Below are positions 16,783 through 34,501 of a stretch of DNA of 64,000 nt, piece by piece. The position numbers and the translations under genes were made by a program. Below the pieces are notes generated by a model, which had not been told where the DNA came from, made no database searches, and worked only from the letters and a program-made list of their open reading frames with translations. Source of the stretch: Actinomycetota bacterium. Lineage in GTDB: Bacteria; Actinomycetota; Actinomycetes; Nanopelagicales; Nanopelagicaceae. Positions within the stretch are counted from its first letter, which is position 1, and each line of letters opens with the position of its first letter. The stretch is taken from assembly GCA_005800815.1 (NCBI GenBank), contig SYEK01000035.1:1-64000 (forward strand). The letters are read 5' to 3'.

Positions 16783-17451
16783 TCAGAGTCGTGACGCGCC
16801 TAACATTTTGTTGTATTCATTGACTAACTGTACTCGCATGTTCCTATCATGATCGGGTTGGATATTGAACTCTTGGGTTACTCGCGAGATTATCTGTTCA
16901 ATAGCTTTCTCACTCACATATCTCATCCGACCGATGTGGGCATTTGTATAACCTTGTGCAACAAGACGCAATGTCTGAACTTGGGCATCGGTAAGTTTGG
17001 CAAGTAACCCTCCGAGTGCAGTCTGAGAAATCGAGACGTTCCCATTGATCCATGAGACCTCCTGATTATCCTGTGCTGAATTCTTGGAGGCAGAGATTGC
17101 CTGACACAAAGCCATTAGATCTGTCGCAGATTTCTTCAACACAACCTTGGTACCCGATGGGATATCGATAAGACGATCTCCGATGAGCCTTAAATCTGAG
17201 CAGCTCTCGAGAATAACTAGGCCGATGTTGGGTTGTGCCTTGCGTAGGTTGATAGCAATCTTGACCGCTGAAGCCCCAGCGATGTGCATATCTAGTAAGA
17301 CAACATCGGGTTGTAATCTTCGAAGAAGAGTGAGGGCGACACTCTCACTTCTTGCCTCACCGATGATGTCCATATCATGCATACGAAGGGCTGGAGTCAA
17401 GGTAGATAATTCAAAACCATCATCTGTCACAACAAGGACACGCTCATTCAT
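16783..17451 (-). CDS. NarL/LuxR-type response regulator (no adjacent kinase)
   Basis: Receiver VLVVTDDGFEL, DVVLLDMHI, VVLKKSA; HTH LTDAQVQTLRLVAQGYTNAHIGRMRYVSEKAIEQIISRV. Confidence 0.8.
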   Translation of the reverse strand: MNERVLVVTDDGFELSTLTPALRMHDMDIIGEARSESVALTLLRRLQPDVVLLDMHIAGASAVKIAINLRKAQPNIGLVILESCSDLRLIGDRLIDIPSGTKVVLKKSATDLMALCQAISASKNSAQDNQEVSWINGNVSISQTALGGLLAKLTDAQVQTLRLVAQGYTNAHIGRMRYVSEKAIEQIISRVTQEFNIQPDHDRNMRVQLVNEYNKMLGASRL

Positions 17452-17578: not shown

Positions 17579-17687
17579 CTACTTTTTTTCGGGGGATGCT
17601 ACGAAAAATACTTCCTGCGCAAGCTCCTCGGATTTTGCAATCACATCCCAAATTTTCAATACATCTGGGGTCAGAGGCAGTTCTTGG
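17579..17687 (-). pseudogene. Start-less coding remnant abutting the tRNA(CAT) 3' end
   Basis: Minus frame reads ..PPHQELPLTPDVLKIWDVIAKSEELAQEVFFVASPEKK*; open into the tRNA, no ATG/GTG start. Confidence 0.35.
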
Positions 17688-17761
17688 TGAGGCGGGTCGG
17701 GCTCGAACCGACGACGACCAAATTATGAGTTTGGGGCTCTAACCAACTGAGCTACCGCCTC
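17685..17761 (-). tRNA. tRNA(CAT): elongator Met, or Ile2 with lysidine; CCA encoded
   Basis: GAGGCGG...CCGCCTCACCA, anticodon arm CCAAACTCATAATTTGG, T-arm GTCGGTTCGAGCCCGAC. Confidence 0.92.
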
Positions 17762-17777
17762 GTCGGAGATGAGTTTA
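17722..17777. repeat. Direct repeat copy 1 (intact side): 5' half of tRNA(CAT) plus 16 bp upstream including the tRNA -10 (TAAACT)
   Basis: 52/56 identity to 31656-31711, counted by eye. Confidence 0.9.
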
Positions 17778-17809
17778 AGGATTAGCATCACAAAAGTCCA
17801 AGTTAAACG

Positions 17810-18007
17810 ATGCTTTTTCAGGAGTTCATTATGCTTGTAGGTATTCTAAAAGAGTTAAAAAATATCGTTATGGTCGAGACATATACAAGTAAAATCATTG
17901 CTTGGTCTGCGACGCAAGGAATTCATAATTACGCGGACCGTGGTGGTGGACCAAATGCCTGCAGAGTAGGTTCAGATGGAGCTGTTTACATCACTGTCCT
18001 TGCCTAG
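17810..18007 (+). CDS. Small ORF of unclear status, possibly a decayed remnant
   Basis: 65-aa ORF; MLVGILKELKN resembles the start of alanine dehydrogenase/PntA proteins but the rest does not. Confidence 0.2.
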   Translation: MLFQEFIMLVGILKELKNIVMVETYTSKIIAWSATQGIHNYADRGGGPNACRVGSDGAVYITVLA

Positions 18008-18034
18008 CAGACTCTTTGCTGATTGAATTAGCAC

Positions 18035-18793
18035 ATGACTATAACACGCCCAGTGGCTCTAGTAACTGGAAGTGGTGGTTCCCTCGGTTCAGAAATGTGC
18101 AAGCAATTCCTTGAAGATGGATACGACGTTGTTGTCTCTGATCTTCGCGAAGATGCAGCGCAAGGGGTGGCAAGAACCCTAGATCCTACCGGAGATAGAG
18201 CCTTTATAGTCCCTATTGATGTTGGGATAACTGAATCTGTAGATGATGGTATTGCCAAGATTATTGATCGCTTTGGTCGTCTTGATGTATTAGTTAACAA
18301 CGCAGGAAACTTCCGTCAAAGTTTAACTCATACGTATAGCGATGAAGATTGGCGCTTTATTACCAATGTGCACCTTGACGGTGCATTTCGCTGCTGCCGC
18401 GCTGCGTATCCACACCTCAAGAAATCTCCATATCCAACAATCATTTCCATTGCATCAATTGCCGCACGTATTGGCTTACCAGGCCGTCTATCATACTCGG
18501 TGTCAAAAGCTGGACTTGAAGCCTTGACTCGAGTATTAGCCGTTGAATGGGCTCCAGATAATATTCGTGTTGTTGCTGTGGCACCAGGATTTACAAAAAC
18601 TCAGAATCAGATCTTTATAGATGGCAAAGAGGTCACTCATGAGGCATTTGCTCAAGCGGTACCGATGAAGCGCATGGGGCGTCCTGAGGAACAAGCATCG
18701 GTAGTAATTTTCTTAGCCTCTCAGAGGGCGTCCTATATCAATGGGCAAACTATTGTTGTTGATGGTGGCGCAACAATTGATCTAAGGGTTTAG
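18035..18793 (+). CDS. Short-chain dehydrogenase/reductase (SDR)
   Basis: ALVTGSGGSLGSEM, NNAGNF, YSVSKAGLEALTRVLAVEWAPDNIRV. Confidence 0.92.
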   Translation: MTITRPVALVTGSGGSLGSEMCKQFLEDGYDVVVSDLREDAAQGVARTLDPTGDRAFIVPIDVGITESVDDGIAKIIDRFGRLDVLVNNAGNFRQSLTHTYSDEDWRFITNVHLDGAFRCCRAAYPHLKKSPYPTIISIASIAARIGLPGRLSYSVSKAGLEALTRVLAVEWAPDNIRVVAVAPGFTKTQNQIFIDGKEVTHEAFAQAVPMKRMGRPEEQASVVIFLASQRASYINGQTIVVDGGATIDLRV

Positions 18794-18953
18794 AAATTAG
18801 TTGGTCAGAACGTGAAATCATTTGTTGCTCTTCTCCGCTCCCAAGCCAACTTGATGCAGGTGCAGGCAACTTGAGAGAGTTATATTCACCTATTAGAGAT
18901 TCTGGAGCAAGTCTCGCGTGGATAAAAAACTTGAGAACCTCCACTCAAAGTCC

Positions 18954-20345
18954 ATGATTACAACCCGCGTTAACTTAGATAATCGCCAACTTGCAGAACT
19001 CCGAGCAATAGTTGATGGTCGTGTAAGTACAAGTGAATCCGTCTTGGAACAGCATAGTGCCGACGAATCAGCAGCGGTGCCTAGTTACCCATCGGCAGTT
19101 GTGATGGTAAACAATGTTGAAGAAGTTTCCAAAGTTTTGGAATATTGTAACAAAGAGTTAATTCCTGTTGTTGCATTTGGTGCTGGCACATCTCTCGAAG
19201 GTCACGTTGTGCCTCTTTTTGGTGGAATTAGTTTGAATCTTTCAAATATGAACAAGATTATTGAAATTCGCGCAGATGATTTATTGGTTCGAGTAGAGGC
19301 TGGTGTTCAGCGAAATGCACTCAATGATAAATTAGCAAACCAAGGACTCTTCTTTTCGGTAGATCCAGGTGCTGATGCAACTCTCGGCGGAATGGCAGCA
19401 ACATGCGCAGCCGGCACTACAACTGTTCGTTATGGAACCATGCGCGAAAATGTTATGGCGTTAACTGCAGTGTTAGCAGATGGAACGATTATTAGAACCG
19501 GACGTGAAACACGTAAACAATCTGCAGGATATGACTTAACCAGACTTCTTGTTGGATCTGAGGGCACCTTGGCAGTTATCACCGAAATTACACTCCGCGT
19601 ATTTGGAATTCCTGAAAAGATGGCCGCTGCGGTTGTCTGTTTCCCTTCGTTGGAAGATGGCGTGCTTGCTGCAACAACAATTGTTCGAGCTGGAATTGCT
19701 ATTGCAAGGTGCGAATTTTTAGATGCGAAATCTATTCGCAATGTTAATGCCTACGATCAGATGACTTTATCTGAACTTCCAACGCTCTTCTTTGAATTCC
19801 ATGGGAGTCCAGTTAGTGTGGAAGAGGACTCGCAAGCAGTAAAAGTAATCACTAAAGAATTTAATGGTTCAGAATTCACATGGACGGCGGATGAAGGTGA
19901 ACGACGCAAACTTTGGCGCGCACGCCACAATGCCCACTGGGCAAATTTTGCTGCCAATCCTGGAAAGCGTGAGTTAAGTACGGATATAGCTGTTCCAATT
20001 TCACGCCTCGCTGAGGCGGTAGACATTGCTGTGCAAATTCTTAATCAACATCCTTACGAATATTCAGTATTGGGCCATGTAGCAGACGGAAACTTCCATT
20101 GCGCAATCATGTTGGATCCATTGAAACCAGAAGAACTCATTGAAGTTCGCCACATCACACATGACATTACCTTGGAAATCATTGCAATGGGAGGAACGTG
20201 CACTGGCGAACATGGAATTGGTTCCGGAAAAATTACCGCTCTAGTTGAGGAAACTGGACAAGAAGCAGTGGATGTTATGCGAGGAATTAAATTATCTATG
20301 GATCCTAATTGGATTCTTAACCCTGGAAAAGTAATTAGTATGTAG
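18954..20345 (+). CDS. FAD-linked oxidase (GlcD/D-lactate dehydrogenase type)
   Basis: VVAFGAGTSLEGHV, SVDPGADATLGGMAATCAAGTTTVRYG, GTCTGEHGIGSGK. Confidence 0.9.
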   Translation: MITTRVNLDNRQLAELRAIVDGRVSTSESVLEQHSADESAAVPSYPSAVVMVNNVEEVSKVLEYCNKELIPVVAFGAGTSLEGHVVPLFGGISLNLSNMNKIIEIRADDLLVRVEAGVQRNALNDKLANQGLFFSVDPGADATLGGMAATCAAGTTTVRYGTMRENVMALTAVLADGTIIRTGRETRKQSAGYDLTRLLVGSEGTLAVITEITLRVFGIPEKMAAAVVCFPSLEDGVLAATTIVRAGIAIARCEFLDAKSIRNVNAYDQMTLSELPTLFFEFHGSPVSVEEDSQAVKVITKEFNGSEFTWTADEGERRKLWRARHNAHWANFAANPGKRELSTDIAVPISRLAEAVDIAVQILNQHPYEYSVLGHVADGNFHCAIMLDPLKPEELIEVRHITHDITLEIIAMGGTCTGEHGIGSGKITALVEETGQEAVDVMRGIKLSMDPNWILNPGKVISM

Positions 20346-20630
20346 AGTGCATCAAAATGATTATTGAACTTAAAGAGGAATTAAAACAAGCTAGTGAATT
20401 GATTTCTCGTACTGAGAATTTAGTAAGAGTGGTGTTATCGGGTCAGCGCAGCAGTTTCAAGCCAAGGCGGGTAGGAGGTAGGGAATATCCATGAAGAGAA
20501 CACGTCGCACTTAAATCAAATTATAAGAAAGCTTATAGAGGCAAGTCGGTCCTTGGATGAGGAAATTCCTCTTGAGAAGCCAATGGATTACTTATTTCGC
20601 AGGAAATTAACGAAATTTGGTACCTGAAAA

Positions 20631-22154
20631 CTAGCTATTGCTGTTAGCAATTAGTTCGCCAGCTTTCCAGCCAATCATCATGCTAGCAGGATTGGTGTTG
20701 CATGAAACTATTGTGGGCATAATCGATGCATCTGCGATGCGAAGATTGGCGATTCCCTGAACTCGAAGCTCAGGGTCAACGACTGCTCCAGAATCAATTC
20801 CCATTCTGCACGTGCCTACTGGGTGGAACCACGTTGTTGCAACAGATCTGACGTAATCGCGAATTTGTGCATCACCTGAGCAGTCAGGTCCGGGAGCAAC
20901 TTCACCTGTAGTCCAAGGTGAGAGGGCTTTAGTTTTTGCTATCTCACGTGAAACTTGGATTCCACTGACTAAGTCATCAAGGTCCGCAGTTTCACTTAAG
21001 TAACGTGGGTCAATAAGTGGAGCAACGGCTGGATTGCTAGAGCGCAATTTTATCCAGCCTCGGCTCTGTGGCCTTACTATTCCTGGAATTACTGTGAAGC
21101 AATGTTCCGGAACTTCGTAATCTTCAACGAAATTCTTTTCATTCACGAACGAAATTTGTATATTAGAGCCAACTACTGATGGATTTGAGCCTACAAATGC
21201 ACAACTTTCAGTGACAAATGGATTACGCCCATCAATCTTTGAAGCAGATCCAAATGCAACACCTATTAACATGTGGTCGACTAAATTGCGCCCAACTTCT
21301 GGGAGTTCAATCACAGGTTTGATTCCAATGGAGCGAAGCTCCTCCGGTGCTCCAATTCCCGATAACAAGAGCAACCTCGGGCTATCAACTGCGCCAGCTG
21401 AAAGAATTAACTCACCACTGATAAAAACCTTATACTCTTTGCCATCTTTTATATATGTGATGCCCTCAACTCGATGAGAACTATTTAGACTTAATTTTTG
21501 CACTATTACATTTGTTTCAATGGTAATTGTCGGCCTTCCAATAATTGGATGCAAAAAGGCTCGATAAGAACTCTGTCGTTTTCCTTGGTAAATTGTAGAT
21601 TCATTCCATCCAGCACCTGAAAGTTTGCCGCTATTAAAGTTGTCATTATAATTAATACCGAGTTCACCACAGGCATCAATAAATATCTGTGACAGTGGAC
21701 TTTGATCCGCAACTACTGCAGGCATTAGCGGTCCGGAGGAAGATCCGTTACTCGTTCCTTCCATAGAAGCAAATGTTCGAAAAACTTCATCGAATCCCCA
21801 ACCATAATTTCCTAGATAACCCCAGGTGTCGTAGTCAAGACGGTCACCTCGGAGATACACCATCCCATTGATGCTGCTACTCCCTCCTAAAACGCGTCCT
21901 CTTGGCCAACGCATAGATCTATTATTTGCAAACTCTTGCGGAACAGTTTCATATTTCCAATCAATGTCAGTTCCCCAAAGACTAAAACATTTTGTGGGAT
22001 CCTGAATTTCTTTTCGCTCATCTGAACCTCCTGCTTCAAGAAGCAAGATTCGGGCACCAGTTCGATCTGACAGATTTCTAACAAGTGCGCATCCCGCAGA
22101 CCCGGCACCAATTACAACGTAATCAAATTCACTTTTCGATATTCCATTTGACAT
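20631..22154 (-). CDS. GMC-family FAD oxidoreductase (choline/alcohol dehydrogenase-like)
   Basis: DYVVIGAGSAGCALVRNLSD, WPRGRVLGGSSSINGMVYLRG, WFHPVGTCRMG, NTNPASMMIGWKAGELI. Confidence 0.93.
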   Translation of the reverse strand: MSNGISKSEFDYVVIGAGSAGCALVRNLSDRTGARILLLEAGGSDERKEIQDPTKCFSLWGTDIDWKYETVPQEFANNRSMRWPRGRVLGGSSSINGMVYLRGDRLDYDTWGYLGNYGWGFDEVFRTFASMEGTSNGSSSGPLMPAVVADQSPLSQIFIDACGELGINYNDNFNSGKLSGAGWNESTIYQGKRQSSYRAFLHPIIGRPTITIETNVIVQKLSLNSSHRVEGITYIKDGKEYKVFISGELILSAGAVDSPRLLLLSGIGAPEELRSIGIKPVIELPEVGRNLVDHMLIGVAFGSASKIDGRNPFVTESCAFVGSNPSVVGSNIQISFVNEKNFVEDYEVPEHCFTVIPGIVRPQSRGWIKLRSSNPAVAPLIDPRYLSETADLDDLVSGIQVSREIAKTKALSPWTTGEVAPGPDCSGDAQIRDYVRSVATTWFHPVGTCRMGIDSGAVVDPELRVQGIANLRIADASIMPTIVSCNTNPASMMIGWKAGELIANSNS

Positions 22155-22262
22155 TTTAGAACCTGCCTATTTCTAGAAATTAGTCCGAAAGTGCTATCAT
22201 ATTATTGGCATCTCTAGCAGATGTCAACGTTTTTCATATTGATACATAATTGTTCTGTTTGC

Positions 22263-22531
22263 CTAGCCAAATACAAAGGCCTCTTTCCATGGAGAGTGTT
22301 TTCTAATTTCTTCACCCATCTAATAGAAAGCCTCAAAACCTAAACCAACCAGTATGATGTCACCGATTCAAAGCGCGTGAGCCTATACATCGCGGCAAGA
22401 TTCTTTCCCAGCTATATTCCGGTCCACCACGCGTCTAACATCTGACCATAGCGGCTCCCATTGCTTCTTCCTGTTCCAGGTGCAAATGTGAATAGAGCGG
22501 TTGATGAAGTGCATACAATGAATATCGTTTC
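22263..22531 (-). pseudogene. Decayed gene, likely neutral/alkaline ceramidase-like family
   Basis: Minus-strand pieces ETIFIVCTSSTALFTFAPGTGRSNGSRYGQMLDAWW and AHAL*IGDIILVGLGFEAFY*MGEEIRKHSPWKEAFVFG* with in-frame stops and a frame change. Confidence 0.5.
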
Positions 22532-22609
22532 ATGAGAAAAGGAATCTAAGAGTTGAGAAATGAGTATTATACATGATTAATAGAAATCAGAGACGAAGTT
22601 CTAAGGGGA

Positions 22610-22747
22610 GTGACTTTGAAGTTGAAGGAAGTATTTGGAGTTGGCCCGGTTATATTGGCACTTCTCCTTGCTGGCTATGCGTCATCTAAATCTGACTCCG
22701 CAAGCTCTACTGTTAAAGATTTTCTAACTGAAGATGCCATGACGTGA
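22610..22747 (+). pseudogene. Truncated signal-peptide ORF, likely remnant of a lipoprotein/substrate-binding protein
   Basis: VTLKLKEVFGVGPVILALLLAGYASSKSDSASSTVKDFLTEDAMT*; lipobox-like LLAG followed by Y instead of C; ends overlapping the next ORF. Confidence 0.35.
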
Positions 22748-23865
22748 GGTCACTTGCCGCACTACTTTGCAAAAGTGGTGCTGATCTTCCGTATTCCATT
22801 TCTCGGCCACTTGAAATCGTTGAGGTTGATTTAGCACCGCCTCGTATCGGCGAGGTAATAGTAAAAATTGAATCGGCCGGTATTTGCCATTCAGATCTCT
22901 CTGTGGTTAATGGCTCGCGCCAACGACCCTTGCCGCTAGTTGCTGGTCACGAATCTGCAGGTGTCGTACTAGAACTTGGTAAAGGCGTCAAAGGTCTAAA
23001 AGTTGGTGACCATGTAACAACCGTGTTCTTGCCTAGTTGTGGTGCATGCAACGAATGTCGTTTAGGCTCTCCGGCATTTTGTTCTGTTGGAGCAACCTCG
23101 AACACACGTGGAGAGATGATTAGTGGTGGGTCACGAATTAGTTTTGATGGAACCTTGGTCAATCACTATAATGGAGTTTCTTGCTACAGCCAATATGCAG
23201 TTCTTGATCAGAGATCACTCATTAAACTTCCCTCCGATATCCCCTTCGATATCGCTGCACTCTTTGGTTGTGCGCTCTTGACAGGCATTGGCGCAGTTCG
23301 AAATTCTGCACACACTAAGCAAGGCCAATCATTAGGCATCTGGGGACTTGGTGGTGTTGGGTTATCGGCCCTAATTGGTGCAGTTATTTCTCAAGCATCA
23401 CCTATTTTTGCCATCGACCCTGTAGCATCAAAAAGAGATCTTGCACTTTCACTAGGTGCAGATTTTGTGCTGGATCCAAGTGAAAACCTGCGCGATCAAT
23501 TTCCCGATGGAGTTCTAGTTGCGATTGAGTGCGCAGGGCGTGCAGATACCTTGAAATCAGCGTATGACGCAACAAGTCGGGGTGGTACGACTGTCACCGT
23601 TGGCTTACCACCAGCCTCTGAGATGCTTTCAATTTCTGCACTATCTCTGGTCGCAGATGTGAAAACAATTCGTGGCTCCTATCTTGGCTCTGCAAATCCA
23701 CGGGTAGATATCCCAGAGTTTGTTGACCTTTGGAGAGCTGGAAGATTGCCGGTCGAAAGGCTACTTACATCTTGTGGGCCAATGTCGGATGTGAATGAAG
23801 CTATGGACGCGCTTCAAGGTGCTCAAGTGGTCAGGCAAGTAATTCATCCTCATCAGGTTAGTTAA
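22744..23865 (+). CDS. Zinc-dependent alcohol dehydrogenase (MDR superfamily)
   Basis: GICHSDLSVVNG, GHESAGVV, four-Cys site CGACNECRLGSPAFC, GLGGVGLSALIGA. Confidence 0.92.
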   Translation: MRSLAALLCKSGADLPYSISRPLEIVEVDLAPPRIGEVIVKIESAGICHSDLSVVNGSRQRPLPLVAGHESAGVVLELGKGVKGLKVGDHVTTVFLPSCGACNECRLGSPAFCSVGATSNTRGEMISGGSRISFDGTLVNHYNGVSCYSQYAVLDQRSLIKLPSDIPFDIAALFGCALLTGIGAVRNSAHTKQGQSLGIWGLGGVGLSALIGAVISQASPIFAIDPVASKRDLALSLGADFVLDPSENLRDQFPDGVLVAIECAGRADTLKSAYDATSRGGTTVTVGLPPASEMLSISALSLVADVKTIRGSYLGSANPRVDIPEFVDLWRAGRLPVERLLTSCGPMSDVNEAMDALQGAQVVRQVIHPHQVS

Positions 23866-23904
23866 ATTTTACTCCATCAAATTTTTCTACTAAATTTTAA
23901 ATAT

Positions 23905-24687
23905 TTAGTACATCAAAATTCCACCACTTACATTAATTGTGGCACCATTAATAAATGAAGAGTTATCGGAGGCAAGAAAAAGTACGACCCGTGCTAGCTC
24001 CTCTGGTTGACCCATGCGGCGAAGTGGGCAAGCGGCCGTGGCTGCAGCAATAATTATTGGGTTATTGTCGTCATGTTGCATCGGTGTATCAATCTGACCA
24101 GGAGCTAGTACATTGACCCGAATCCCATATGGTCCAAATTGTCCAGCAAAACCCCGAGTCATGGTGACAACTCCACCTTTTGCCGCAACATAAGCATCGC
24201 TTCCGTTCACTGGCCCCGTCATCCAACTAGTGGAAGTGCAATTAATTATTCGACCTGGAACTTTTTGCTCAATCATTGCAGCACCCGCTGCCCGATTGAG
24301 GAAAAATCCAGAGCGTAAATTCACATTGAGTTGGTAATCCCAATCATCTTCAGTCACTTCTTGAAGTTTTTTGCGCCGCAGACTACCTGCGATATGGGCT
24401 AGAACAAATATCTCTCCAAAAACATCAAGGGTTTGTGTAATAATTCCTTCACAAGCACCGCTTGTTTGAAGATCTGCGACATGAAAAAAATGTCGAGACG
24501 GATCTTGCATTTCTTGGGATAAAGAAGCTAGCCCTGCCTTATTTTGTGAAGTCGCAAAAACCTTTGCACCTGCCGCCTCAAATAGGATGGCACTCGCACG
24601 CCCTATCCCACTTGATGCGCCGGTTACGACAACTACTTTGCCTTTAAGACCTAACCCTAGTGATAAATCAGGGAAGCTAGAAGGCAT
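23905..24687 (-). CDS. Short-chain dehydrogenase/reductase (SDR)
   Basis: VVVTGASSGIGRASA, YVAAKGGVVTMTRGFAGQFGPYGIRVNVLAPGQIDTPM. Confidence 0.92.
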   Translation of the reverse strand: MPSSFPDLSLGLGLKGKVVVVTGASSGIGRASAILFEAAGAKVFATSQNKAGLASLSQEMQDPSRHFFHVADLQTSGACEGIITQTLDVFGEIFVLAHIAGSLRRKKLQEVTEDDWDYQLNVNLRSGFFLNRAAGAAMIEQKVPGRIINCTSTSWMTGPVNGSDAYVAAKGGVVTMTRGFAGQFGPYGIRVNVLAPGQIDTPMQHDDNNPIIIAAATAACPLRRMGQPEELARVVLFLASDNSSFINGATINVSGGILMY

Positions 24688-25819
24688 ATTTGGCTAGTAC
24701 TTTTTCATTAACGTTGATACCAAGTCCAGGCTTATTAGGTACACCGATTGTTCCATTCTCTGCGACAAATGGCTCGTCAACTAACTCATGTTGCATTGGG
24801 TTCTCATCAGGCTTGAGCTCCTGTAATAAGCAGCGCGATGTCGAGGCGGAAAGTGCAATAGATGCAGCAGTATTTACAGCACTGGACCAGGCATGGCTGT
24901 TAAACCACAAACCAGCGGCCTCAACTAAGCGAATAATGCCGAGTGCCCCTGTAATGCCCTCAACTCGTCCTACATCACATCCAATGACATCAAGAGTGCC
25001 GGAATTAATGACCTCGGTATAACCACGATAATCCCACTCGCGTTCTCCACCTGCAAAAAGAGTTGTTGTGTGTTGACGGAGCTTGCGGAAATGCTCAAAC
25101 TCCCATGGTTCAAATGGCTCTTCTATCCATTTGAGATTTTGCTCTTCCCATGTTTGTACACGGGCAATAGTCTCATCAACAGTCCAGTTAAGGGACTGAC
25201 CGCGATCCATCATAATCCACGCCTTCGGGCCGGCGGCAGTTCGTAAGTCTCTAACGAAATTGGTATCGCGATCAATATCATAGCCCACACGAGCATCACC
25301 ACGCTTTCCCATACCAATCTTGAATCCGATGTAACCATCATCTATAAACTTTGCATGGCGCTCTACTTCAAGATCGAGATTAGCATTCCACACATGTGTA
25401 GAAGCCAAAACAGGTAAGCGTGTATCAGTCGATGCATCACGCTTTCCAATCATCTGTATGAGTGATTGACCAATAATTTTTCCTTTGAGATCCCACAGTG
25501 CAATGTCGATTGCTGAAAGTGCAAAATGCGCAAGTCCTCCGCGATATGAGTACCACCAGGTCTGCTTACGGATATCACGCCAGATCCCAATATTTTGTGT
25601 TGGATCCTTTCCGATTAAGTCATTAATTAAACCATTAATGACTTCAACCGTTCCACGTGTGCTTCCTGGGAATTGAGTAATTGCCTCACCCCAGCCCACA
25701 TGGCCATCTGTTGATTCAATGCGTACAAAAGTGAGATATCGCATCGAGTTATTGTCATTTGGTTCTGGATATGTGACTGGATGGACTGTTACCCGTGCAA
25801 TTGTTGGAATATTTGCCAT
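24677..25819 (-). CDS. Enolase superfamily, mandelate racemase/muconate lactonizing-type enzyme (MR-1)
   Basis: FKIGMGKRGDARVGYD, WIMMDRGQ, WIEEPFEP, GGERE, DVIGCDVGRVEGIT, FNSHAW. Confidence 0.88.
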   Translation of the reverse strand: MANIPTIARVTVHPVTYPEPNDNNSMRYLTFVRIESTDGHVGWGEAITQFPGSTRGTVEVINGLINDLIGKDPTQNIGIWRDIRKQTWWYSYRGGLAHFALSAIDIALWDLKGKIIGQSLIQMIGKRDASTDTRLPVLASTHVWNANLDLEVERHAKFIDDGYIGFKIGMGKRGDARVGYDIDRDTNFVRDLRTAAGPKAWIMMDRGQSLNWTVDETIARVQTWEEQNLKWIEEPFEPWEFEHFRKLRQHTTTLFAGGEREWDYRGYTEVINSGTLDVIGCDVGRVEGITGALGIIRLVEAAGLWFNSHAWSSAVNTAASIALSASTSRCLLQELKPDENPMQHELVDEPFVAENGTIGVPNKPGLGINVNEKVLAKYAF

Positions 25820-25850
25820 TTTTCTCTCCTTTTTTAATGCGGTCCTTGGA

Positions 25851-26798
25851 TTAGTAAAGATTTTCTGGATATGCAGGTTGCATCTCTGCCGTTGTTATCC
25901 AACCACTTCGTGCATGAATGATTCTTTGGATCGAATTCGCAACCATATTTTGTGAACCTACTTGTGAGCCAATGCCTGGCTTCAGTTGTGTAGTTTGAAA
26001 AACTTTACCATCAAGAGATAGTTCGATTTCATCTATTGCGCTTTTGCCAAGCGAGGGGAGATCAATATGTCCATAAAAATGTGAAGTAAACCAAACTTTA
26101 CCCTCCCAAAAGGCACTGTATGTTTGATTTACCCCTGCACTTTCACCAGCGCGCACGGTAAATCTTCCGGGTAAATCTATCTCCACCTCAGTAATAACGG
26201 GTAACAACTCTTTGGCAATTTTTTCAATCTTGAGTCCCATTGCCGTTGCGACAACAGTCATGGATTGTGGAAATCCTGCATGTCCCAAAATTTCTTCCTT
26301 CGCGACAGCCTCTGTAAATGCCTCTGGGGTTTTGCCCAGACCAATACGGGTAAGGACAGTTGCACCGAATCCTGCAATACTCACGGTGCGACGAACCGCA
26401 ACGGTGCATCCACGTGGAGCTGCACCAAGCAATGTTAGGACTAACGAATCAAAAATAAGTCCAGGATTAACCCCAGCTCCTGCTATTGAAACAGATTTAG
26501 ATTTAGCTAGCGCATCAATTTCGTCAGCTCGCTTTGCATCAACTGCCCAGGGGTATGCACATTCTTCTGCAGAGACTAAAACATTTGAGCCAGCCTTTAC
26601 TGCACGCTCAATATCGCTTGCGACATCCTTGAAGCGAGTAGTCGTAGCAATGATGACAACGTCGGCACCTGACTCAAGGGCTTTTGCGCTTTCATTTCGC
26701 CCGAATGGACCCAGAACTTTGTGATGCGAAACTGAAGATAACAATTGTGAAACGGTGGTCCCTAGTTGTCCTGAACCATAGATTGCAATCGTTGCCAT
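25851..26798 (-). CDS. 2,4-diaminopentanoate dehydrogenase / DapB-like NAD(P)-dependent oxidoreductase
   Basis: AIYGSGQLGTTV Rossmann motif; VLVSAEECAYPW; IAGAGVNPGLIFDSL. Confidence 0.7.
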   Translation of the reverse strand: MATIAIYGSGQLGTTVSQLLSSVSHHKVLGPFGRNESAKALESGADVVIIATTTRFKDVASDIERAVKAGSNVLVSAEECAYPWAVDAKRADEIDALAKSKSVSIAGAGVNPGLIFDSLVLTLLGAAPRGCTVAVRRTVSIAGFGATVLTRIGLGKTPEAFTEAVAKEEILGHAGFPQSMTVVATAMGLKIEKIAKELLPVITEVEIDLPGRFTVRAGESAGVNQTYSAFWEGKVWFTSHFYGHIDLPSLGKSAIDEIELSLDGKVFQTTQLKPGIGSQVGSQNMVANSIQRIIHARSGWITTAEMQPAYPENLY

Positions 26799-26820
26799 AA
26801 ATATCTCTTTGAGTTATTTA

Positions 26821-27936
26821 CTATCTATCTACGCGATACTGTGAGATGAAATCTTCATCCAGATCCCAACCAAATCCAGGAGAATCAGGAAGAACGAACT
26901 CACCATTTACCAAAGGCATGCGATTCCCAAGCATTTCCCAGAAAATCGGATCACGAGTTGGCGAAAATGATTCAACATAGGTTCCGTGAGGAATAGAGGC
27001 GAGTAAATGAGATGCAACTTGCGCTTCTTCGTGGTGACCCAGTTGCACGTCAAAGGATGCTGCAAGAGCTGCCACACGACGCCACTCAGTTGGTCCACCA
27101 CCCCAAGATGCATCGTAATTACAGACATCGATCGCGCCGTTCACCATCATCTCGCGCATACCAACACGGGAAATCTCACTTTGTCCTGCGGCAACATTGA
27201 CGTTTCCGCGGAGACGGATATCACGAAGACCACGCCAGTCAGCGTGCCAGCGGGTTGGCTCTTCAAACCATCGAAGTGAAATTTCGCCCTCAATATGAGA
27301 AAGAAAAGCGATTGCTTCATTGACGGTGTAACCCTGGTTTGCATCAACAACAAAGACAAAGTTTTCTCCAACAATGGACTTTGCTAAGCGAAGTCGTGCT
27401 GCATCTTCTTCAGGTGGTTTAGCACCAATTTTAAATTTCATTCCGACCATACCGATTTCATCCTTGAAAAAAGCGAGTTCACGCTCTAAATCAGCCTCAC
27501 TCGAGCCGTAGTATCCGCCAATTCCAATCATTGGAATCCGATCACGGAATCCGCCCCATAAGCGCCACAATGGCTGATTGGTGTATTTACCGAATGCATC
27601 CCAAATTGCGCTATCAACACATGCAATTGCCTGCATAGGAATCGCGCGATCACGCAGTTGGTCAAAAGTAACAGGTAGCATCGCGTGCCAAATTTTCTCT
27701 ACTTGCCTTGAATCCATGCCAGTTACAAGAGGGGCAATTTCATCATGAATAATGGAGAGGACTTCATTTTGTTCTTCATCGGTATCCGCGTTATAACTTT
27801 GGCCAACAATGCCATCAGATGTAGTGATGCGCGTGATGATTGTGCATCGGTTGCGCATCTTGTAATAGGAGCCCTTATAAAGATGCTTAAGTGGCACCTT
27901 AATTGGAATTGTTTCGATTTTTTCGATTTTAGTCAT
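26821..27936 (-). CDS. Enolase superfamily, mandelate racemase-type enzyme (MR-2)
   Basis: GMKFKIGAKPPEEDAARL, FVVDANQGYTV, RWFEEPTRW, AAGQSEISR, DASWGGGPTEW, LGHHEE. Confidence 0.88.
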   Translation of the reverse strand: MTKIEKIETIPIKVPLKHLYKGSYYKMRNRCTIITRITTSDGIVGQSYNADTDEEQNEVLSIIHDEIAPLVTGMDSRQVEKIWHAMLPVTFDQLRDRAIPMQAIACVDSAIWDAFGKYTNQPLWRLWGGFRDRIPMIGIGGYYGSSEADLERELAFFKDEIGMVGMKFKIGAKPPEEDAARLRLAKSIVGENFVFVVDANQGYTVNEAIAFLSHIEGEISLRWFEEPTRWHADWRGLRDIRLRGNVNVAAGQSEISRVGMREMMVNGAIDVCNYDASWGGGPTEWRRVAALAASFDVQLGHHEEAQVASHLLASIPHGTYVESFSPTRDPIFWEMLGNRMPLVNGEFVLPDSPGFGWDLDEDFISQYRVDR

Positions 27937-27954
27937 AGCTTCTTTCTTTAGTGT

Positions 27955-28194
27955 TTAGTTGGCATTACAAATTACTATCGCGTCACCTGTTTTGATTACA
28001 TCATTTTCTTTAAAAAGAAGTTCAAGAATTGTTCCGGCAATTGGTGAGGGAACTTCAACTGTCGCCTTATCTGTTTCAACTTCCATAATCATTTCACCTG
28101 CAGCAATTGTGTCACCTATGGCGACCTTCCAAACCACTAAGTAGACCTCATCAACGGTGTCACCAACGCGTGGCATCTTGATTGTCATCTTCAT
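27955..28194 (-). CDS. Free-standing lipoyl (biotinyl/lipoyl attachment) domain protein
   Basis: 79 aa; MEVETDKATVEVPSPIAGTILELLFKENDVIKTGDAIVIC; no E2 catalytic domain. Confidence 0.9.
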   Translation of the reverse strand: MKMTIKMPRVGDTVDEVYLVVWKVAIGDTIAAGEMIMEVETDKATVEVPSPIAGTILELLFKENDVIKTGDAIVICNAN

Positions 28195-29219
28195 GAGCGT
28201 CCAACATTCGCAGGTGTAAATATATTTTGAAACATTGAGGCGAGATTTGGCTCAGGAGAGTCTTGACATGTTGCAACAACTTTTTCGATTGTCGTCTTCA
28301 TTTCTGATTTTATCTCTATAATTCTCTGCGGGTTGAGCGCACCACTTGCTATTAGAGCTTCTTCTGTGAGTTTTATTGGATCTCTTTTTTCCCATTTCTC
28401 AAGTTCACCCTCTGGGCGATAGAGAGCCTGATCCGCACGTGAGTGTCCAGCAAAACGGTAGGTTTTTGCTTCAATTAGGGTTGGTCCACCATTGCTACGT
28501 GCGCGAATCACGGCTTCTGTGACTCCCTTTTGTACCTGTGCAATATCCATGCCATCTAGGGCAAAGTGGGGCATTTTGTAGCTATCTGCGCGCATATGAA
28601 GATCTTCAAGTGGAGTTGTGGTGTTTATACGAGAGTACTCTCCATAAACGTTGTTATCACAGATAAATACCACTGGAAGGTTCCAAATCGCAGCTAAGTT
28701 CAGAGTTTCATGGAAGGCCCCAATATTTGTGGCACCATCTCCAAAAACCGCGACAGCAACATCATCTGTCTTACGGACTTGAAATGAGAGAGCAGCTCCT
28801 GCCGCTATTGGCATGCCACCTCCAATGATTGCAGACGTTGGGAGCAGTCCAAGTTCCATATTGCTCAAGTGCATCGATCCACCGACGCCCCCACAACAGC
28901 CAATCGTCTTACCCATGATTTCGCCCAAAACAGACTCTGGACTAAGGCCCAAAGCCAAAGCGATTCCGTGGCCACGATAAGTCGCAGAGACAATATCAGT
29001 GGGGCGTAAAACACTGGCCAAACCGACTGCCAGAGCTTCTTGCCCCAAGCAAAGGTGGGTCGTTCCACGAATGGAACCAGAGGCGAAGAGGCCGTTGATT
29101 TGTCCTTCAAATTCACGAATTTCAATCATTCGCTCATATTGAGCAATCGCATCTTCTTGTACTGCTCTGCGGCGTTCAAGTTCGGCAGACATTATTTTAG
29201 CCCTTCTAATTCCCACCAA
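28191..29219 (-). CDS. 2-oxoacid/acetoin dehydrogenase E1 alpha subunit-like
   Basis: ThDP motif FGDGATNIGAFHETLNLAAIWNLPVVFICDNN; YRGHGIALALG; TYRFAGHSRAD. Confidence 0.92.
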   Translation of the reverse strand: MVGIRRAKIMSAELERRRAVQEDAIAQYERMIEIREFEGQINGLFASGSIRGTTHLCLGQEALAVGLASVLRPTDIVSATYRGHGIALALGLSPESVLGEIMGKTIGCCGGVGGSMHLSNMELGLLPTSAIIGGGMPIAAGAALSFQVRKTDDVAVAVFGDGATNIGAFHETLNLAAIWNLPVVFICDNNVYGEYSRINTTTPLEDLHMRADSYKMPHFALDGMDIAQVQKGVTEAVIRARSNGGPTLIEAKTYRFAGHSRADQALYRPEGELEKWEKRDPIKLTEEALIASGALNPQRIIEIKSEMKTTIEKVVATCQDSPEPNLASMFQNIFTPANVGRS

Positions 29220-30208
29220 GATTTTGGAGTGGTCCCAGTTTTTAAGGATTCGATGAGTTGACGTGCAATATCATCTGCCGTTGGTACAAAACGTGCTTCA
29301 AGTACACCGCTATACGGTACTGGCACATCTGGTGTAGTAATGCGAAAAGGGGCTCCCTTAAGTTGACAAAAGAGTTCTGAGGTAGCCGCTGCGACAATTT
29401 CAGAGCCCCAGCCACCACTTTGCGGGGCTTCTTCGACAACGATTAAGCGGCCTGTCTTTTTAACGGATGTAAGCACTGTCTCGCGATCCCAAGGGACCAC
29501 TGTCGCAAGATCAATTAGTTCTACATCAAGAGCGGATGTTTCAATAGCTCTGCGCGCTACATTAACCATTTGACCAAGAGATACGACAGTGATTTCATTT
29601 CCTTTGCGTAGTACTCTTGCTTTACCAATCGGAAGAACGAGTGAGGTATCGACATCTCCTCGCTCAGCGTAGAGAATGCGGGGCTCAAGTACTATGACTG
29701 GGTCTGGGTCTTGAATCGCTGACCGCGTTAAAGAGTAAGCAGATTGTGCATCACTTGGGCAGACAACTTTTAAGCCTGGAGTTGCAGCTACCCAATTCTC
29801 GAGTGTCTGCGAATGTTGACAACCAAAGCCAAGTCCAGAACCTACTGAGGCTCGTACAACCATCGGCACTGAAAGCTTGCCATTACTGAGGTAGCGCATC
29901 TTTGCAGCCTCTGTCACAAGTTGATCAAGGGCTACACCAAGAAACTCCATAAACATAATTTCAATAACTGGTCTCATGCCCATAATTGCTGCGCCAACTG
30001 CTGCGCCTGTGAAACCCATTTCAGATATTGGAGTATCGCGAATGCGAAGAGGGCCAAATTCAGTCAATAAGCCCTCCGAGGTTTTAAATGGACCTTCAGC
30101 CTGGGCCACATCTTCCCCAAATAACATCACAGTTGAATCTGCACGCATTTCGTCGGCGAGAGCCTGAACAATCGCCTGCCTAAATCGCATAGGCGTCGTA
30201 ATTGCCAT
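29192..30208 (-). CDS. 2-oxoacid/acetoin dehydrogenase E1 beta subunit-like
   Basis: LFGEDVAQAEGPFKTSEGLLTEFGPLRIRDTPISEMGFTGAAVGAA; GFGCQHSQTLENW. Confidence 0.92.
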   Translation of the reverse strand: MAITTPMRFRQAIVQALADEMRADSTVMLFGEDVAQAEGPFKTSEGLLTEFGPLRIRDTPISEMGFTGAAVGAAIMGMRPVIEIMFMEFLGVALDQLVTEAAKMRYLSNGKLSVPMVVRASVGSGLGFGCQHSQTLENWVAATPGLKVVCPSDAQSAYSLTRSAIQDPDPVIVLEPRILYAERGDVDTSLVLPIGKARVLRKGNEITVVSLGQMVNVARRAIETSALDVELIDLATVVPWDRETVLTSVKKTGRLIVVEEAPQSGGWGSEIVAAATSELFCQLKGAPFRITTPDVPVPYSGVLEARFVPTADDIARQLIESLKTGTTPKSWWELEGLK

Positions 30209-30305
30209 ATCACTCCCTCTGCTCCGATAGATGATGGGGGTTTTCCAAAGACTGGAATCGTTTGCTAGATTACTGGCATGGACAGGAAAAGGTCAATTCC
30301 TAGTG

Positions 30306-31430
30306 ATGTTATCTAAGACTCCCTCACCAGGGTTGCCCCTCTCTGGAGTCAAAGTCCTAGATGCCACATCCAATATCGCTGGCCCTTTCAGTGGTGCGGT
30401 TTTGGCAGACCTTGGCGCAGAGGTAATCAAGATTGAGATCCCGACAGGTGATCCTGCTCGAGCGATGTTCCCTATTGACGGGGATAGATCGGCATATTTT
30501 CATGTGGTCAACCGCAATAAAACCGGAGTAATTATTGACTTCAAGTCAAAGGAGGGTCAATCAAGATTGGGCAGCATGCTGGACGAATGCGATGTGTTCT
30601 TAACTAATTTTCTTCCAGAGAGGCTGCAAACCCTAGGCCTCACATCCCAGGAGTTACGAGCAAAACGACCTCGCTTGATATTTGGAAATCTTTCGTCCTA
30701 CGGTGCTGAAGGACCGGATAAGGCAGCCCCTGGTTACGACGCAACAGTTCAGGCACGTACTGGAATCATGCATGTCACTGGAGAGCCCGACGGAGAGCCG
30801 GTGCGGGCCGGAGTATCTGTTTTAGATATCGGTGGGGGGATGTGGCTGGCGATCGGAGTCCTGGCTGCATTGATAAGACGCGAGAGAACAGGAGAGGGGA
30901 GTGTTGTTGAGACCTCACTGTTTGAAACAGGAGCACTCTGGGTAAGTTATCACTTATCAGCAAATCAACTTACAGGCCAAGCATCAGTCAGATCCGGCGC
31001 AGGTCATCCAGCTTTTTCTCCTTATGGACTCTTTGCAACATCTTCTGGAACCTTATGTATAGGTGTTGGTAACGATAACATTTTTGCAAAGCTATGTGGA
31101 TTAATAAATCGCAAAGATTTAGTCCAAGATATTCGCTTTTTGACCAATTCGGACCGCGTCACTAACGCACTTATTCTAAAAGTTGAAATAGAGAAGTCCC
31201 TTGCAAATAAAGATGCAGTTTATTGGGGGCAAGTCCTTGGCAGTGGTGGCGTACCTGCAGATCGTGTTTCACTGCCGGAGGAGCTTTTCCATGATTCGCA
31301 AGCTCAGGCGGTAGGCATATTGCTTGACTACCCAGATACAACAACCCAAGTTCAGCTGATTCCAGGACTTCCTCTGCGCTTTGATGGTGAACGTCCTCCG
31401 ATCCGCTTGCCGGCTCCTCATCTAAAGTAG
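30306..31430 (+). CDS. CaiB/BaiF (class III) CoA-transferase
   Basis: GVKVLDATSNIAGPFSGAVLADLGAEVIKIE; FHVVNRNKTGVIIDFKSKEGQ; GYDATVQARTGIM. Confidence 0.9.
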   Translation: MLSKTPSPGLPLSGVKVLDATSNIAGPFSGAVLADLGAEVIKIEIPTGDPARAMFPIDGDRSAYFHVVNRNKTGVIIDFKSKEGQSRLGSMLDECDVFLTNFLPERLQTLGLTSQELRAKRPRLIFGNLSSYGAEGPDKAAPGYDATVQARTGIMHVTGEPDGEPVRAGVSVLDIGGGMWLAIGVLAALIRRERTGEGSVVETSLFETGALWVSYHLSANQLTGQASVRSGAGHPAFSPYGLFATSSGTLCIGVGNDNIFAKLCGLINRKDLVQDIRFLTNSDRVTNALILKVEIEKSLANKDAVYWGQVLGSGGVPADRVSLPEELFHDSQAQAVGILLDYPDTTTQVQLIPGLPLRFDGERPPIRLPAPHLK

Positions 31431-31655
31431 CGAGACAACACGCTTATAGTGGCCAAAAAACTAATCTTTTTGGGGCTTATTGCTTAATCTGTACACCTTC
31501 AGTCAGGCCATGGCTCGTTTCCTTGCCAGCCATAGCGATACTGTGATTGAGGATAAGACCTTTAGTCGAAATACAGCAGGGGCTGAAGGAAATTAACCCA
31601 TCTGACCTGCCCTTTTTCTTACAAACTGGGAATCAAGTTGATTCTGGAACATCGG

Positions 31656-31695
31656 ATTATGAGTTCGGGGCTCTAACCAACTGAGCTACCGCTTC
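31656..31695 (-). pseudogene. tRNA(CAT) 5'-half fragment
   Basis: GAAGCGGTAGCTCAGTTGGTTAGAGCCCCGAACTCATAAT, no 3' half; substitutions in acceptor and anticodon stems relative to the intact gene. Confidence 0.85.
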
Positions 31696-31711
31696 ATCGG
31701 CGATGAGTTTA
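31656..31711. repeat. Direct repeat copy 2 (distal side), ending on the crtYd stop codon
   Basis: ATTATGAGTTCGGGGCTCTAACCAACTGAGCTACCGCTTCATCGGCGATGAGTTTA; 4 mismatches vs 17722-17777. Confidence 0.9.
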
Positions 31712-32041
31712 CTGTAGTTTTTTGTTGCGCTGAAATCCCCTTCGACCCCAGAACTCCCACATGCCCATCACTGTGAGAACAAGTGCGAAGCCAAAGAGAA
31801 GATCCTCAATTGGGGCACTTGCAATCCGGATTCCAATAATTGTCTCTGGGTCATACATGACAATGGCTTTGCCATCACTTCGGGGATGGGTGAGCCACCA
31901 GTTAGTTATCAGCTGGAAGGGAAAAATGATTACATAGGAGAGCCAGAAAGCCAGACGCGTTAAAAGCGAGTTCTTGAAGAGAAAGAGATCAATCATGATG
32001 GAGAGAGAAAAAGCTGTTATTGCAATATCGCTATAGATCAC
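31709..32041 (-). CDS. crtYd: Lycopene cyclase domain protein, CrtYd-like subunit
   Basis: DPETIIGIRIASAPIEDLLFGFALVL (PIEDxxFG pattern); ~110-aa membrane protein paired with crtYc. Confidence 0.82.
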   Translation of the reverse strand: MIYSDIAITAFSLSIMIDLFLFKNSLLTRLAFWLSYVIIFPFQLITNWWLTHPRSDGKAIVMYDPETIIGIRIASAPIEDLLFGFALVLTVMGMWEFWGRRGFQRNKKLQ

Positions 32042-32406
32042 TGCTCTTTATCCTTGCCAAACTCCTTCTCACGCAAGTGAGGTTTCACCGTCGTCACGCC
32101 CTCTATGGTCAAGATAGCTGCCATAGGAACGATGATGAAAAAGAGGAACTCCTCTAATGGAATCTCAAACGGGCCATAGATTCCAAGCATTCGATCCCTA
32201 TTGAAGAACCAGTGTCCTTGGGCGATTGCATATGCATCCCAAGCTAGGAAGAGGATACTGACCGGGAGAATGCTCAGAAGAGCTCTTTTCCACCTTCGCA
32301 GAACACTTGTCTTGAGAAATATTTCAAGCCAAAAAGAACCAAAAACCGTAAAAACTAACATTGCCATGTAGCCAAATTTTTCCACACCAAATCTTCTCAC
32401 ACCCAT
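32038..32406 (-). CDS. crtYc: Lycopene cyclase domain protein, CrtYc-like subunit (start at MGVRRF; ORF track over-extends to 32670)
   Basis: WDAYAIAQGHWFFNRDRMLGIYGPFEIPLEEFLFFIIVP. Confidence 0.88.
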   Translation of the reverse strand: MGVRRFGVEKFGYMAMLVFTVFGSFWLEIFLKTSVLRRWKRALLSILPVSILFLAWDAYAIAQGHWFFNRDRMLGIYGPFEIPLEEFLFFIIVPMAAILTIEGVTTVKPHLREKEFGKDKEQ

Positions 32407-32437
32407 CTTTGATAGGATCGTTCTAGATGGGGGAGAC

Positions 32438-33385
32438 ATGAAGGAAAGTGAATTCCAACTCTTGAATCGGGTGCGCTTGTTCTCGAGTGTGTCCGTTGTG
32501 CTGGTAATAGTGTCCTCACTGATTTTTATAGATCTGTTGGGTGAGAGCTCAATGGGCTGGCAAGTCGCACTAGCAATAGGGGCTCTTGCCATCGGTATTC
32601 CACATGGAGCACTTGACCACCTGGTAACGATGCCCAAAGCCGATCCTCTGAAGATGAGCATATTTGTCATCGCTTATGTTGCGCTGGCAGCCTTAGCAGT
32701 GATTGCAATATTAACTTTCAATACGGTTGGCTTTATCGCCGTACTATTTATGAGCGCAGTGCACTTTGGCATCGGAGATGCGGCTTTTCTGAGAGAGATT
32801 GACAGGCGGAAGGATCCAAAAAGGAGATTGTCTGGACTATTTTTCATCCCAGCTGCTGGTTTTACACCTGTATTTATTCCACTCGTGAACTCGGAGAGTA
32901 CCAAGGCTCTAGCCAGTGTGAATTCAGATCTGATTAATTGGCATCGCGGATTCAATCAAGAGATACTTTTTATGGTCTGTGCTCTTGCAGTAATCTCTAT
33001 CATCACGCTGGCTCTGAGCACAAGATTACGTGAGGTGATCGATCTGAGCCTTCTTTTGCTACTGGCCCTGCTGACACCACCACTAATCGCATTTGCCACC
33101 TACTTTGGATGTTGGCATGCGATGCGCCATACGGCTCGGCTAACTCTGACCTTACCCAAGTGCCAAGAGCGCTTTGCACGAGATGAGATTGGCAGAGCGT
33201 TCTCAAAGGCGGTTATCCCTGGTTTGCCAGCCCTCTTTGGGACATTTGCTGTCGCAGGAGCTCTTGCACTAGGTGGACAGAGTTTTACCGATGAGTTCTT
33301 CTGGATGGCTTTGGTAGTTGTGTGGGCACTCACAGTCCCTCATATGGTCGTTACCGCGAAATTAGATCGGGCGGCGCTAACCTAG
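32438..33385 (+). CDS. blh: Brp/Blh-family beta-carotene 15,15'-dioxygenase
   Basis: GALAIGIPHGALDHLV, MSAVHFGIGDAAFL, YFGCWHAMRHTARL. Confidence 0.9.
   Translation: MKESEFQLLNRVRLFSSVSVVLVIVSSLIFIDLLGESSMGWQVALAIGALAIGIPHGALDHLVTMPKADPLKMSIFVIAYVALAALAVIAILTFNTVGFIAVLFMSAVHFGIGDAAFLREIDRRKDPKRRLSGLFFIPAAGFTPVFIPLVNSESTKALASVNSDLINWHRGFNQEILFMVCALAVISIITLALSTRLREVIDLSLLLLLALLTPPLIAFATYFGCWHAMRHTARLTLTLPKCQERFARDEIGRAFSKAVIPGLPALFGTFAVAGALALGGQSFTDEFFWMALVVVWALTVPHMVVTAKLDRAALT
33378..33383 (+). promoter_or_regulatory. -10 element TAACCT, 6 nt before GTG 33390
   Basis: TAACCT-AGAGAT-GTG. Confidence 0.45.
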
Positions 33386-33389
33386 AGAT

Positions 33390-33983
33390 GTGAAATTAAG
33401 GGTTTTTATCATTTCGCTTATGCTGTTGGGATTACCAATCATCTCGGCTCATAGTGCCCCGGTATATGTCTTTCCAGTAACAGGGTGTGAGTACACCTAT
33501 GCAAAAGCGCACCATGACTATCCAGCTACCGATATCCTGGCCCCTGCGGGTTGTAAGTTTGTAGCACCGATCAATGGTGTCGTCGATGAGGTCAATCGCA
33601 TCGATAGGTGGAGTGGAAAAAAGAGTTTAGGTCCAGATCGTGGAGGACTCTATGTTTCAATTATTGGCGATGACGGCGTTCGCTATTATGGTTCTCATCT
33701 GCGATCAATTCCAGCCAGTATCGAAGTGGGTGTTCTCGTCAAGGCAGGTCGACTCTTAGGTTCAATCGGATCATCAGGTAGTGCGCGAGGGACGCCCCCC
33801 CATCTGCACTTTGGAATCTCATGGCCGACACCGCTTGAGTCAGGGGCGTGGTGGGTCAGGCGGGGAATGATCTGGCCCTGGAAATATCTTGATGCATGGA
33901 AAGTTGGTAAGGATGCATCTCCGCTCAAAGAGATCAATGCCAAGAAATCAAAGACTGGTGAGATTCCACCTACTCCGAAGTAG
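33390..33983 (+). CDS. M23-family peptidase (LytM-like), secreted
   Basis: Signal peptide; HHDYPATDILAPAGCKFVAPINGVVDEV; YYGSHLRSI; GSSGSARGTPPHLHFGI. Confidence 0.88.
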   Translation: MKLRVFIISLMLLGLPIISAHSAPVYVFPVTGCEYTYAKAHHDYPATDILAPAGCKFVAPINGVVDEVNRIDRWSGKKSLGPDRGGLYVSIIGDDGVRYYGSHLRSIPASIEVGVLVKAGRLLGSIGSSGSARGTPPHLHFGISWPTPLESGAWWVRRGMIWPWKYLDAWKVGKDASPLKEINAKKSKTGEIPPTPK

Positions 33984-33990
33984 AAAAAAA

Positions 33991-34018
33991 TAACCCCCAC
34001 TGTCTCCAGTGGGGGTTA
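33991..34018 (-). terminator. Intrinsic terminator of cspA
   Basis: TAACCCCCACTG-TCTC-CAGTGGGGGTTA hairpin followed on minus strand by a T7 run. Confidence 0.85.
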
Positions 34019-34036
34019 TCGAGAAAGCGGTGTTGA

Positions 34037-34240
34037 TTAGGCAGGGTTTACTGCATCGGCCTGAGGGCCCTTTGGACCCTGTACGACCTCAAATGAGACT
34101 GCCTGACCCTCTTCAAGGGACTTGTAACCATTTCCTTGGATCGCTGAGTAGTGAACGAAAACATCTTGTCCGCCACCATCAACTGCAATGAAACCGAAAC
34201 CCTTTTCAGAGTTGAACCACTTAACTGTGCCTGTTGCCAT
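34037..34240 (-). CDS. cspA: Cold shock protein (start at MATGTVKWF)
   Basis: [34 protein letters not shown]. Confidence 0.95.
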
Positions 34241-34501
34241 GTTTTTACTTTTCCTTCGATATATGGGTGTTCGAGAGTTCCTCGACCACGGTCTTCCTCT
34301 TGCGCCAGCGATACCGAATATGTATTCCATGAAACGGGTACTGATTAAGCGTCCGACTAAGCCCCACTCTACCTTCTTCTGGCCCGTATGCCTAAAGTGG
34401 GGGTGGACAGTTTGAGCCTGATGGGTGTGTAATTGAGGCACTAGCAGGAGCACAAGGCGGCCGGGGAAGGTCGCAATCGGCGTCCTTGCTAGGAGATTTC
34501 A

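Follow-up and report, generated by a model that had tools for sequence, protein, structure and literature searches.

Repeat pair and gene order at the tRNA-Met locus

The window, by which we mean the whole stretch of 64,000 nucleotides analysed here, is one contig (C34) of a host genome of 1.285 Mb in 37 contigs, and it contains a direct repeat whose copies at 17722-17777 and 31656-31711 lie on the same strand and are identical, without gaps, at 52 of 56 bp (E 4e-19). Since ARAGORN sets a tRNA-Met(CAT) gene at 17685-17761 on the minus strand, the repeat corresponds to nt 1-40 of this tRNA together with 16 bp upstream; searches of the whole host genome returned no third copy, so that the genome holds one full copy of the tRNA and one half. 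A sequence-only reading had described the repeat as the tRNA 5' half with 16 bp of upstream DNA, which our alignment confirms, and had let it run up to the anticodon loop, which is right as to the 5' half and slightly short as to the extent, the repeat taking in the full loop (nt 33-39) plus one more base. The same reading had the distal copy end on the stop codon of crtYd, and the final 3 bases of the repeat (31709-31711) are indeed this TAA on the minus strand. Between the two copies lies a metabolic gene block of approximately 14 kb, the half being situated 13.9 kb upstream of the intact tRNA. The features are, in order of position:

16783-17451, minus strand: response-regulator/LuxR-like gene (hereafter RR), left chromosomal flank; Response_reg and GerE both slightly under the Pfam cut-offs; the same tRNA-Met neighbour in G008, G061 and G039
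17685-17761, minus strand: intact tRNA-Met(CAT), which stands where the island meets RR and was presumably regenerated there; ARAGORN, and Rfam RF00005 with 66.4 bits
17722-17777, minus strand: proximal repeat copy (tRNA nt 1-40 plus 16 bp upstream)
17762-17864: probable imported upstream block, with the whole tRNA promoter region and a remnant of the ald start
17772-17777, minus strand: TAAACT, probable -10 box of the intact tRNA
17865-31430: cargo, encoding an SDR, an FAD-linked oxidase, a GMC oxidoreductase, a Zn-ADH, a second SDR, two mandelate-racemase-type enzymes, a DAP_DH_C dehydrogenase, a lipoyl carrier, E1 alpha and beta, and a class III CoA-transferase (Pfam)
23899-31427: cargo core in common with G071, inverted there and on the tRNA 3' side; 80% nucleotide identity over 7.5 kb
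31580-31684, plus strand: residual C-terminal coding end of a tyrosine integrase, whose final codons run on the strand opposite to the tRNA 5' half; 82% identical to the integrase tail of G291 (E 5.9e-13)
31656-31695, minus strand: stranded and degenerate tRNA 5' half (nt 1-40) with a GAAGCGG acceptor strand, from the repeat match and comparison with relatives
31656-31711, minus strand: distal repeat copy
31709-32041, minus strand: crtYd (Pfam Lycopene_cyc, 2.6e-12), its TAA at 31709-31711 forming the end of the repeat
32041-33983: right chromosomal flank with crtYc (minus), a blh-type beta-carotene dioxygenase gene (plus) and an M23 peptidase gene (plus), from Pfam, in an order kept in relatives

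The genes crtYd and crtYc encode the lycopene cyclase subunits according to Pfam, and the order kept among the 59 relatives in which the tRNA is resolved is RR, tRNA-Met, crtYd, crtYc, blh and M23 peptidase, with variable inserted DNA on either side of the tRNA across the genus and the crt genes absent in some relatives. Three genomes (G008, G061, G039) are empty on both sides of the tRNA and run from RR through tRNA-Met into crtYd, with 183 bp to RR in G008 and G061, 207 bp in G039, and 34 nt to crtYd in all three. In the two closest relatives by crtYd, G058 and G035 (88% and 80% identical to the gene in the window), the tRNA begins exactly 13 nt past the crtYd TAA, and in G032 the separation is 15 nt, so the earlier proposal that the ancestral tRNA lay 13 nt downstream of crtYd agrees with both the order of the empty sites and the spacing of these relatives. 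Because the RR-to-tRNA gap of the window (233 bp) is near the values of empty sites (183-207 bp) and relatives keep the ancestral order, the island sits within the tRNA locus. Apparent double tRNA-Met genes in G098 and G013 were left out, as they look like overlapping contig ends. In the complete genome G102 (L163, C1, 13381-14710), two tRNA-Met(CAT) genes lie 1.18 kb apart, the DNA between them encodes a HAD-type phosphatase and crtYd, and the flanking sequence repeats, as in a tandem duplication of the locus. Beyond the M23 peptidase gene, an Rfam match to the cspA thermoregulator at 33987-34378, below threshold (61 bits, gathering 78), overlies a gene resembling those of cold-shock proteins.

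An integrase tail joined to half a tRNA

The DNA immediately before the stranded half translates into some 34 codons (GLKEINPSDLPFFLQTGNQVDSGTSDYEFGALTN, followed by a stop), and the arm and the half together (31588-31695) match a genome of another genus, G291, with 95% identity over 102 bp (E 2e-41). The same joint of arm and half is present in G007, of the same genus as the host (88%), and in G184, of a further genus (85%), so that the joint recurs in three genomes and spans three genera. The arm of G291 closes an ORF with the sequence TMRVYAHIF, which resembles the motifs found around the catalytic tyrosine of tyrosine recombinases; this ORF terminates in NPSDLRFFLQTGNQVDSGTSDYESGALTN, and its final residues, i.e. 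only the last ~10 codons, are encoded by the antisense strand of the tRNA 5' half. The G291 integrase gene runs off the end of its contig, and the 80-residue piece available gave no Pfam or PHROG match; in G184, a neighboring ORF matches PHROG integrases (E 3e-7) and, short of the curated threshold, Phage_integrase (E 6e-4). The idea that the arm is intergenic noise was dropped, as its reading frame is conserved across the three genera. An intact relative of the integrase tail was found neither in the 296 family genomes nor in the order genomes, IMG/VR viral contigs or phages searched. Resident recombinases near tRNA-Met were considered and dropped: the host genome has two PF00589 genes, neither of them in the island, and their scores resemble those of the XerC/XerD pair that nearly all relatives possess.

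Judged from these matches, what stands at the distal repeat copy is a joint made by integration and not a plain duplication. The opposite view, that integration played no part and the repeat goes back to an old tandem duplication around the tRNA, can point to the fact that duplications of ~1.25 kb that include tRNA-Met do occur (G102); such an event, however, would neither join the C-terminus of an integrase to tRNA nt 40 nor repeat an identical joint in three genera, and we give it hardly any credence. The origin of the displaced half can be read from two of the other genomes, for which clean empty-site comparators exist. Two genomes of the same genus as G291, G289 and G293, have an intact tRNA locus with the very sequence of the G291 half and of the DNA upstream of it, down to the unusual GGTCAGAGC, and the DNA upstream of the G007 half is that of its sister species G003, G005 and G036. 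In both G291 and G007 the half is thus the 5' half that the host itself had, severed at the anticodon stem-loop, and, given that these halves match the intact loci of sister species, integration would cross at the anticodon loop and displace the 5' half. Integration at the 5' half is what the sequence-only reading had supposed. The layout of G184 is like that of the window, with an intact tRNA, 11.2 kb of metabolic cargo, an integrase relic, the half tRNA and M23. A contig end in G121 (L172, C23, 4823-4870) lies in a joint of the half type (GG before ATTATGAGTTCGG) with two bases of the arm visible, and is possibly a fifth case. In the window itself, the stranded half (31656-31711) retains a -10-like box that overlaps the crtYd stop; if active, this box would drive transcription of the half tRNA onward across the integrase tail, in antisense, in the direction of the CoA-transferase gene.

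The position of the crossover is bracketed from two directions. Fragments of the 5' type stop at nt 40 whereas ordinary fragments of the 3' type within the genus (G010, G058, G050 and G029) start at nt 32-33, both thereby enclosing the 7-nt anticodon loop. Furthermore, the tRNA-Met of G293 (L169, C7, 136-210), for which ARAGORN calls no anticodon, has two mismatches in its anticodon stem (CGGAA/TCCGG, 3 of 5 pairs), and each of its halves matches a different parental anticodon stem, so that this gene is apparently a chimaera of two tRNA-Met types, as from a swap inside the loop. Taken together, the fragment limits and the G293 chimaera point to strand exchange within the anticodon loop.

Promoter block, spacer type and cargo history

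The hexamer TAAACT lies at -16 to -11 relative to the tRNA. We counted 37 distinct tRNA-Met upstream regions of the genus in the 59 genomes whose tRNA is resolved. In 23 of them a TANNNT hexamer begins at -20 to -16, whereas any one of the remaining 5-nt bins has such a start in 1-11 of the 37, and because of this enrichment it is reasonable to call TAAACT the likely -10 box, as had been done from the sequence alone. A second part of that proposal does not survive, namely that the promoter is composite, with a -35 side derived from the island. The segment 17687-17864, which comprises the tRNA and the 103 bp before it with both the -10 and the -35 region, matches one contiguous block of G042 with 87% identity over 179 bp; that block is the tRNA-ald intergenic region plus the start of ald, and the window keeps a truncated ald start in the same place. 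The -10 and -35 regions of the intact tRNA would accordingly have arrived together in a block of ~100 bp. A history of one step, with a single integration and a composite promoter (-10 from the host, -35 from the island), does account for the geometry of the repeat and for the 13-nt spacing in G058 and G035; in view of the single G042-homologous block that spans -10, spacer and -35 region, and of a crossover that we infer to lie downstream of the promoter, by which -10 and -35 would arrive together, we consider it very improbable. With such a crossover, the intact tRNA is expected to have its 5' part entirely from incoming DNA, and the match to G042 bears this out.

The spacer of the stranded half complicates matters further. 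Its 13 nt match G042 at 11 positions and G058 at only 3, and both spacer and acceptor strand are of the G042 type, yet at TAAA exactly they pass into a crtYd end like that of G058; the intact tRNA-Met is of the GAGGCGG/CCGCCTC type in its 3' half likewise. A pattern search across the genus finds a spacer of this type in no more than five further genomes, and in all three loci that were read it does not stand beside crtYd. The stranded half is therefore not a simple native leftover, its spacer and acceptor stem being of the G042 type and unlike those of G058 and G035. Gene conversion between the two copies, or a recipient that already possessed the foreign tRNA type, would explain this spacer. 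Identity steps between crtYd and blh were evaluated as a recombination breakpoint and dropped as ambiguous.

The cargo has a GC content of 45% against 50-51% in the flanks and, with an E1 alpha/beta pair of the 2-oxoacid dehydrogenase type accompanied by a lipoyl carrier, and a class III CoA-transferase, reads as a catabolic block. The idea that it carries its own integrase was abandoned, as Pfam searches of the cargo ORFs gave no integrase gene inside the island. G071 has the SDR, the ADH and the 7.5-kb core in the stretch from RR to a tRNA of ordinary kind; its core is inverted and is 80% identical to that of the window at the nucleotide level compared with ~76% in the flanks. Because G071 holds it on the 3' side at a divergence like that of the flanks, the cargo may be older than the 5'-type event, or may have moved separately. 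The foreign-type spacer on both repeat copies and the G071 cargo on the other side of the tRNA together make a history of one step too simple. Similar cargo occurs in different genera in G184 (L160, 6519-15969; a 5'-type island) and G010 (L083, 2891-9476; a 3'-type island), where inspection by eye indicates D-threonine aldolase-like, RidA-like, N-acyl-D-amino-acid deacylase-like and DHDPS-like proteins.

An alternative that takes the mixed ancestry at face value is a mosaic in two layers, whereby an old joint of integrase and half tRNA, possibly from another species, was later accompanied by cargo and by an intact tRNA with its ald fragment that came separately through homologous recombination at a hypervariable locus. 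The SDR, the ADH and the inverted core between RR and tRNA in G071, the G042-type spacer joined to the crtYd end at TAAA, the ald remnant beside the intact tRNA, and the variable DNA that borders tRNA-Met left and right throughout the genus all accord with it. G184, however, independently presents the same succession of intact tRNA, cargo, integrase relic and half tRNA that a single insertion would leave, and both flanks of the window match an empty site, including the RR-to-tRNA distance, so that we regard the mosaic as an unlikely account.

The explanation that we favor, and hold to be probable, is that the distal copy is the att joint of a tyrosine integrase that recombined within the anticodon loop of tRNA-Met and displaced its 5' half, the locus having been reworked later. 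In its mobile form, the element would have had an integrase gene that read directly into an attP bearing a tRNA 5' half, with its stop codon in the antisense strand of the tRNA. On entering the tRNA between RR and crtYd, presumably with the cargo in the same event, it would have regenerated a full tRNA at the RR end from the host 3' half and the incoming 5' half and promoter, leaving the promoter-bearing 5' half stranded beside crtYd. The integrase would since have eroded to its last ~34 codons, for which reason the island should be immobile, and homologous recombination or gene conversion would afterwards have reworked the locus. A broader idea, which we put forward tentatively and as somewhat less than an even prospect, is that the sole elongator tRNA-Met gene of these streamlined actinobacteria serves as a two-sided docking port, where metabolic cassettes that displace the 3' or the 5' part use the same anticodon loop and events on the 5' side repeatedly replace the promoter of an essential tRNA; the 37 distinct upstream regions in 59 genomes and the similar cargo on opposite sides of the tRNA in G184 and G010 are the observations behind it.

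Relation to known tRNA-targeting elements

Islands in the 5' half of a tRNA are a known minority kind, as the sequence-only reading had assumed: Islander lists 159 of 3919 islands with 5' fragments against 3760 with 3' fragments (PMC4383910). Like that class, the window has a full tRNA and an upstream 5' fragment in the same orientation that bracket an island of ~14 kb, the fragment lies 13.9 kb upstream and hence within the 2-200 kb range of the class, and the relatives G008, G061 and G039 have an uninterrupted tDNA between the same flanks. Islander also demands an integrase gene (PMC4383910), of which the window island keeps just the C-terminal remnant at 31580-31684; the island is therefore best filed as a decayed member of the 5'-fragment class, and the statement that it works like this class is firmer than one of active membership. 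To the known kind the window adds a decayed case with an integrase scar, i.e. a tail fused to tRNA nt 40, which can be searched for in islands whose integrase is lost and which searches of the Islander type skip because they require the gene. The comparisons of empty and filled sites among related genomes document a rare mode of integration into bacterial tRNA genes, whereby an essential tRNA with a single gene receives its 5' half and its promoter from the arriving DNA.

Archaeal integrases of the pTN3 type also use the tRNA 5' half, bacterial equivalents being described as seldom encountered (PMC8371274), and as in the window their att lies in that half and the promoter of the regenerated tRNA comes from the side of the element. 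These integrases are suicidal, their gene being split within the catalytic domain upon integration, whereas here only the tail past the tyrosine region crosses the site, the motif of the G291 ORF lying ~70 residues before its end. The Mx8 and SSV integrases (cited in PMC4383910) have a coding region that extends into a tRNA-derived core, a likeness to the window in layout. Islands of the marine 'Ca. Actinomarinales' (PMC7771536) likewise combine streamlined actinobacteria and single-copy tRNAs with direct repeats of tRNA fragments and cargo; the order and the tRNAs are different, and the parts of that account available to us describe no joint between an integrase tail and a half tRNA. Tycheposons and the fGI-3 island of Methylophilaceae (PMC10872708) resemble the window in that a cargo island of a streamlined aquatic bacterium is bordered by tRNA-Met(CAT); they carry a tyrosine recombinase, whereas the window island has the border tRNA without the recombinase. 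The same study reports a repeated 20-mer, ACCAGCTGAGCTAATCCCCC, described there as the last 20 bp of tRNA-Lys; its reverse complement resembles a tRNA 5' end (GGGGGATTAGCTCAGCTGGT), so that in the island in question, too, the 5' portion of a tRNA may be concerned.
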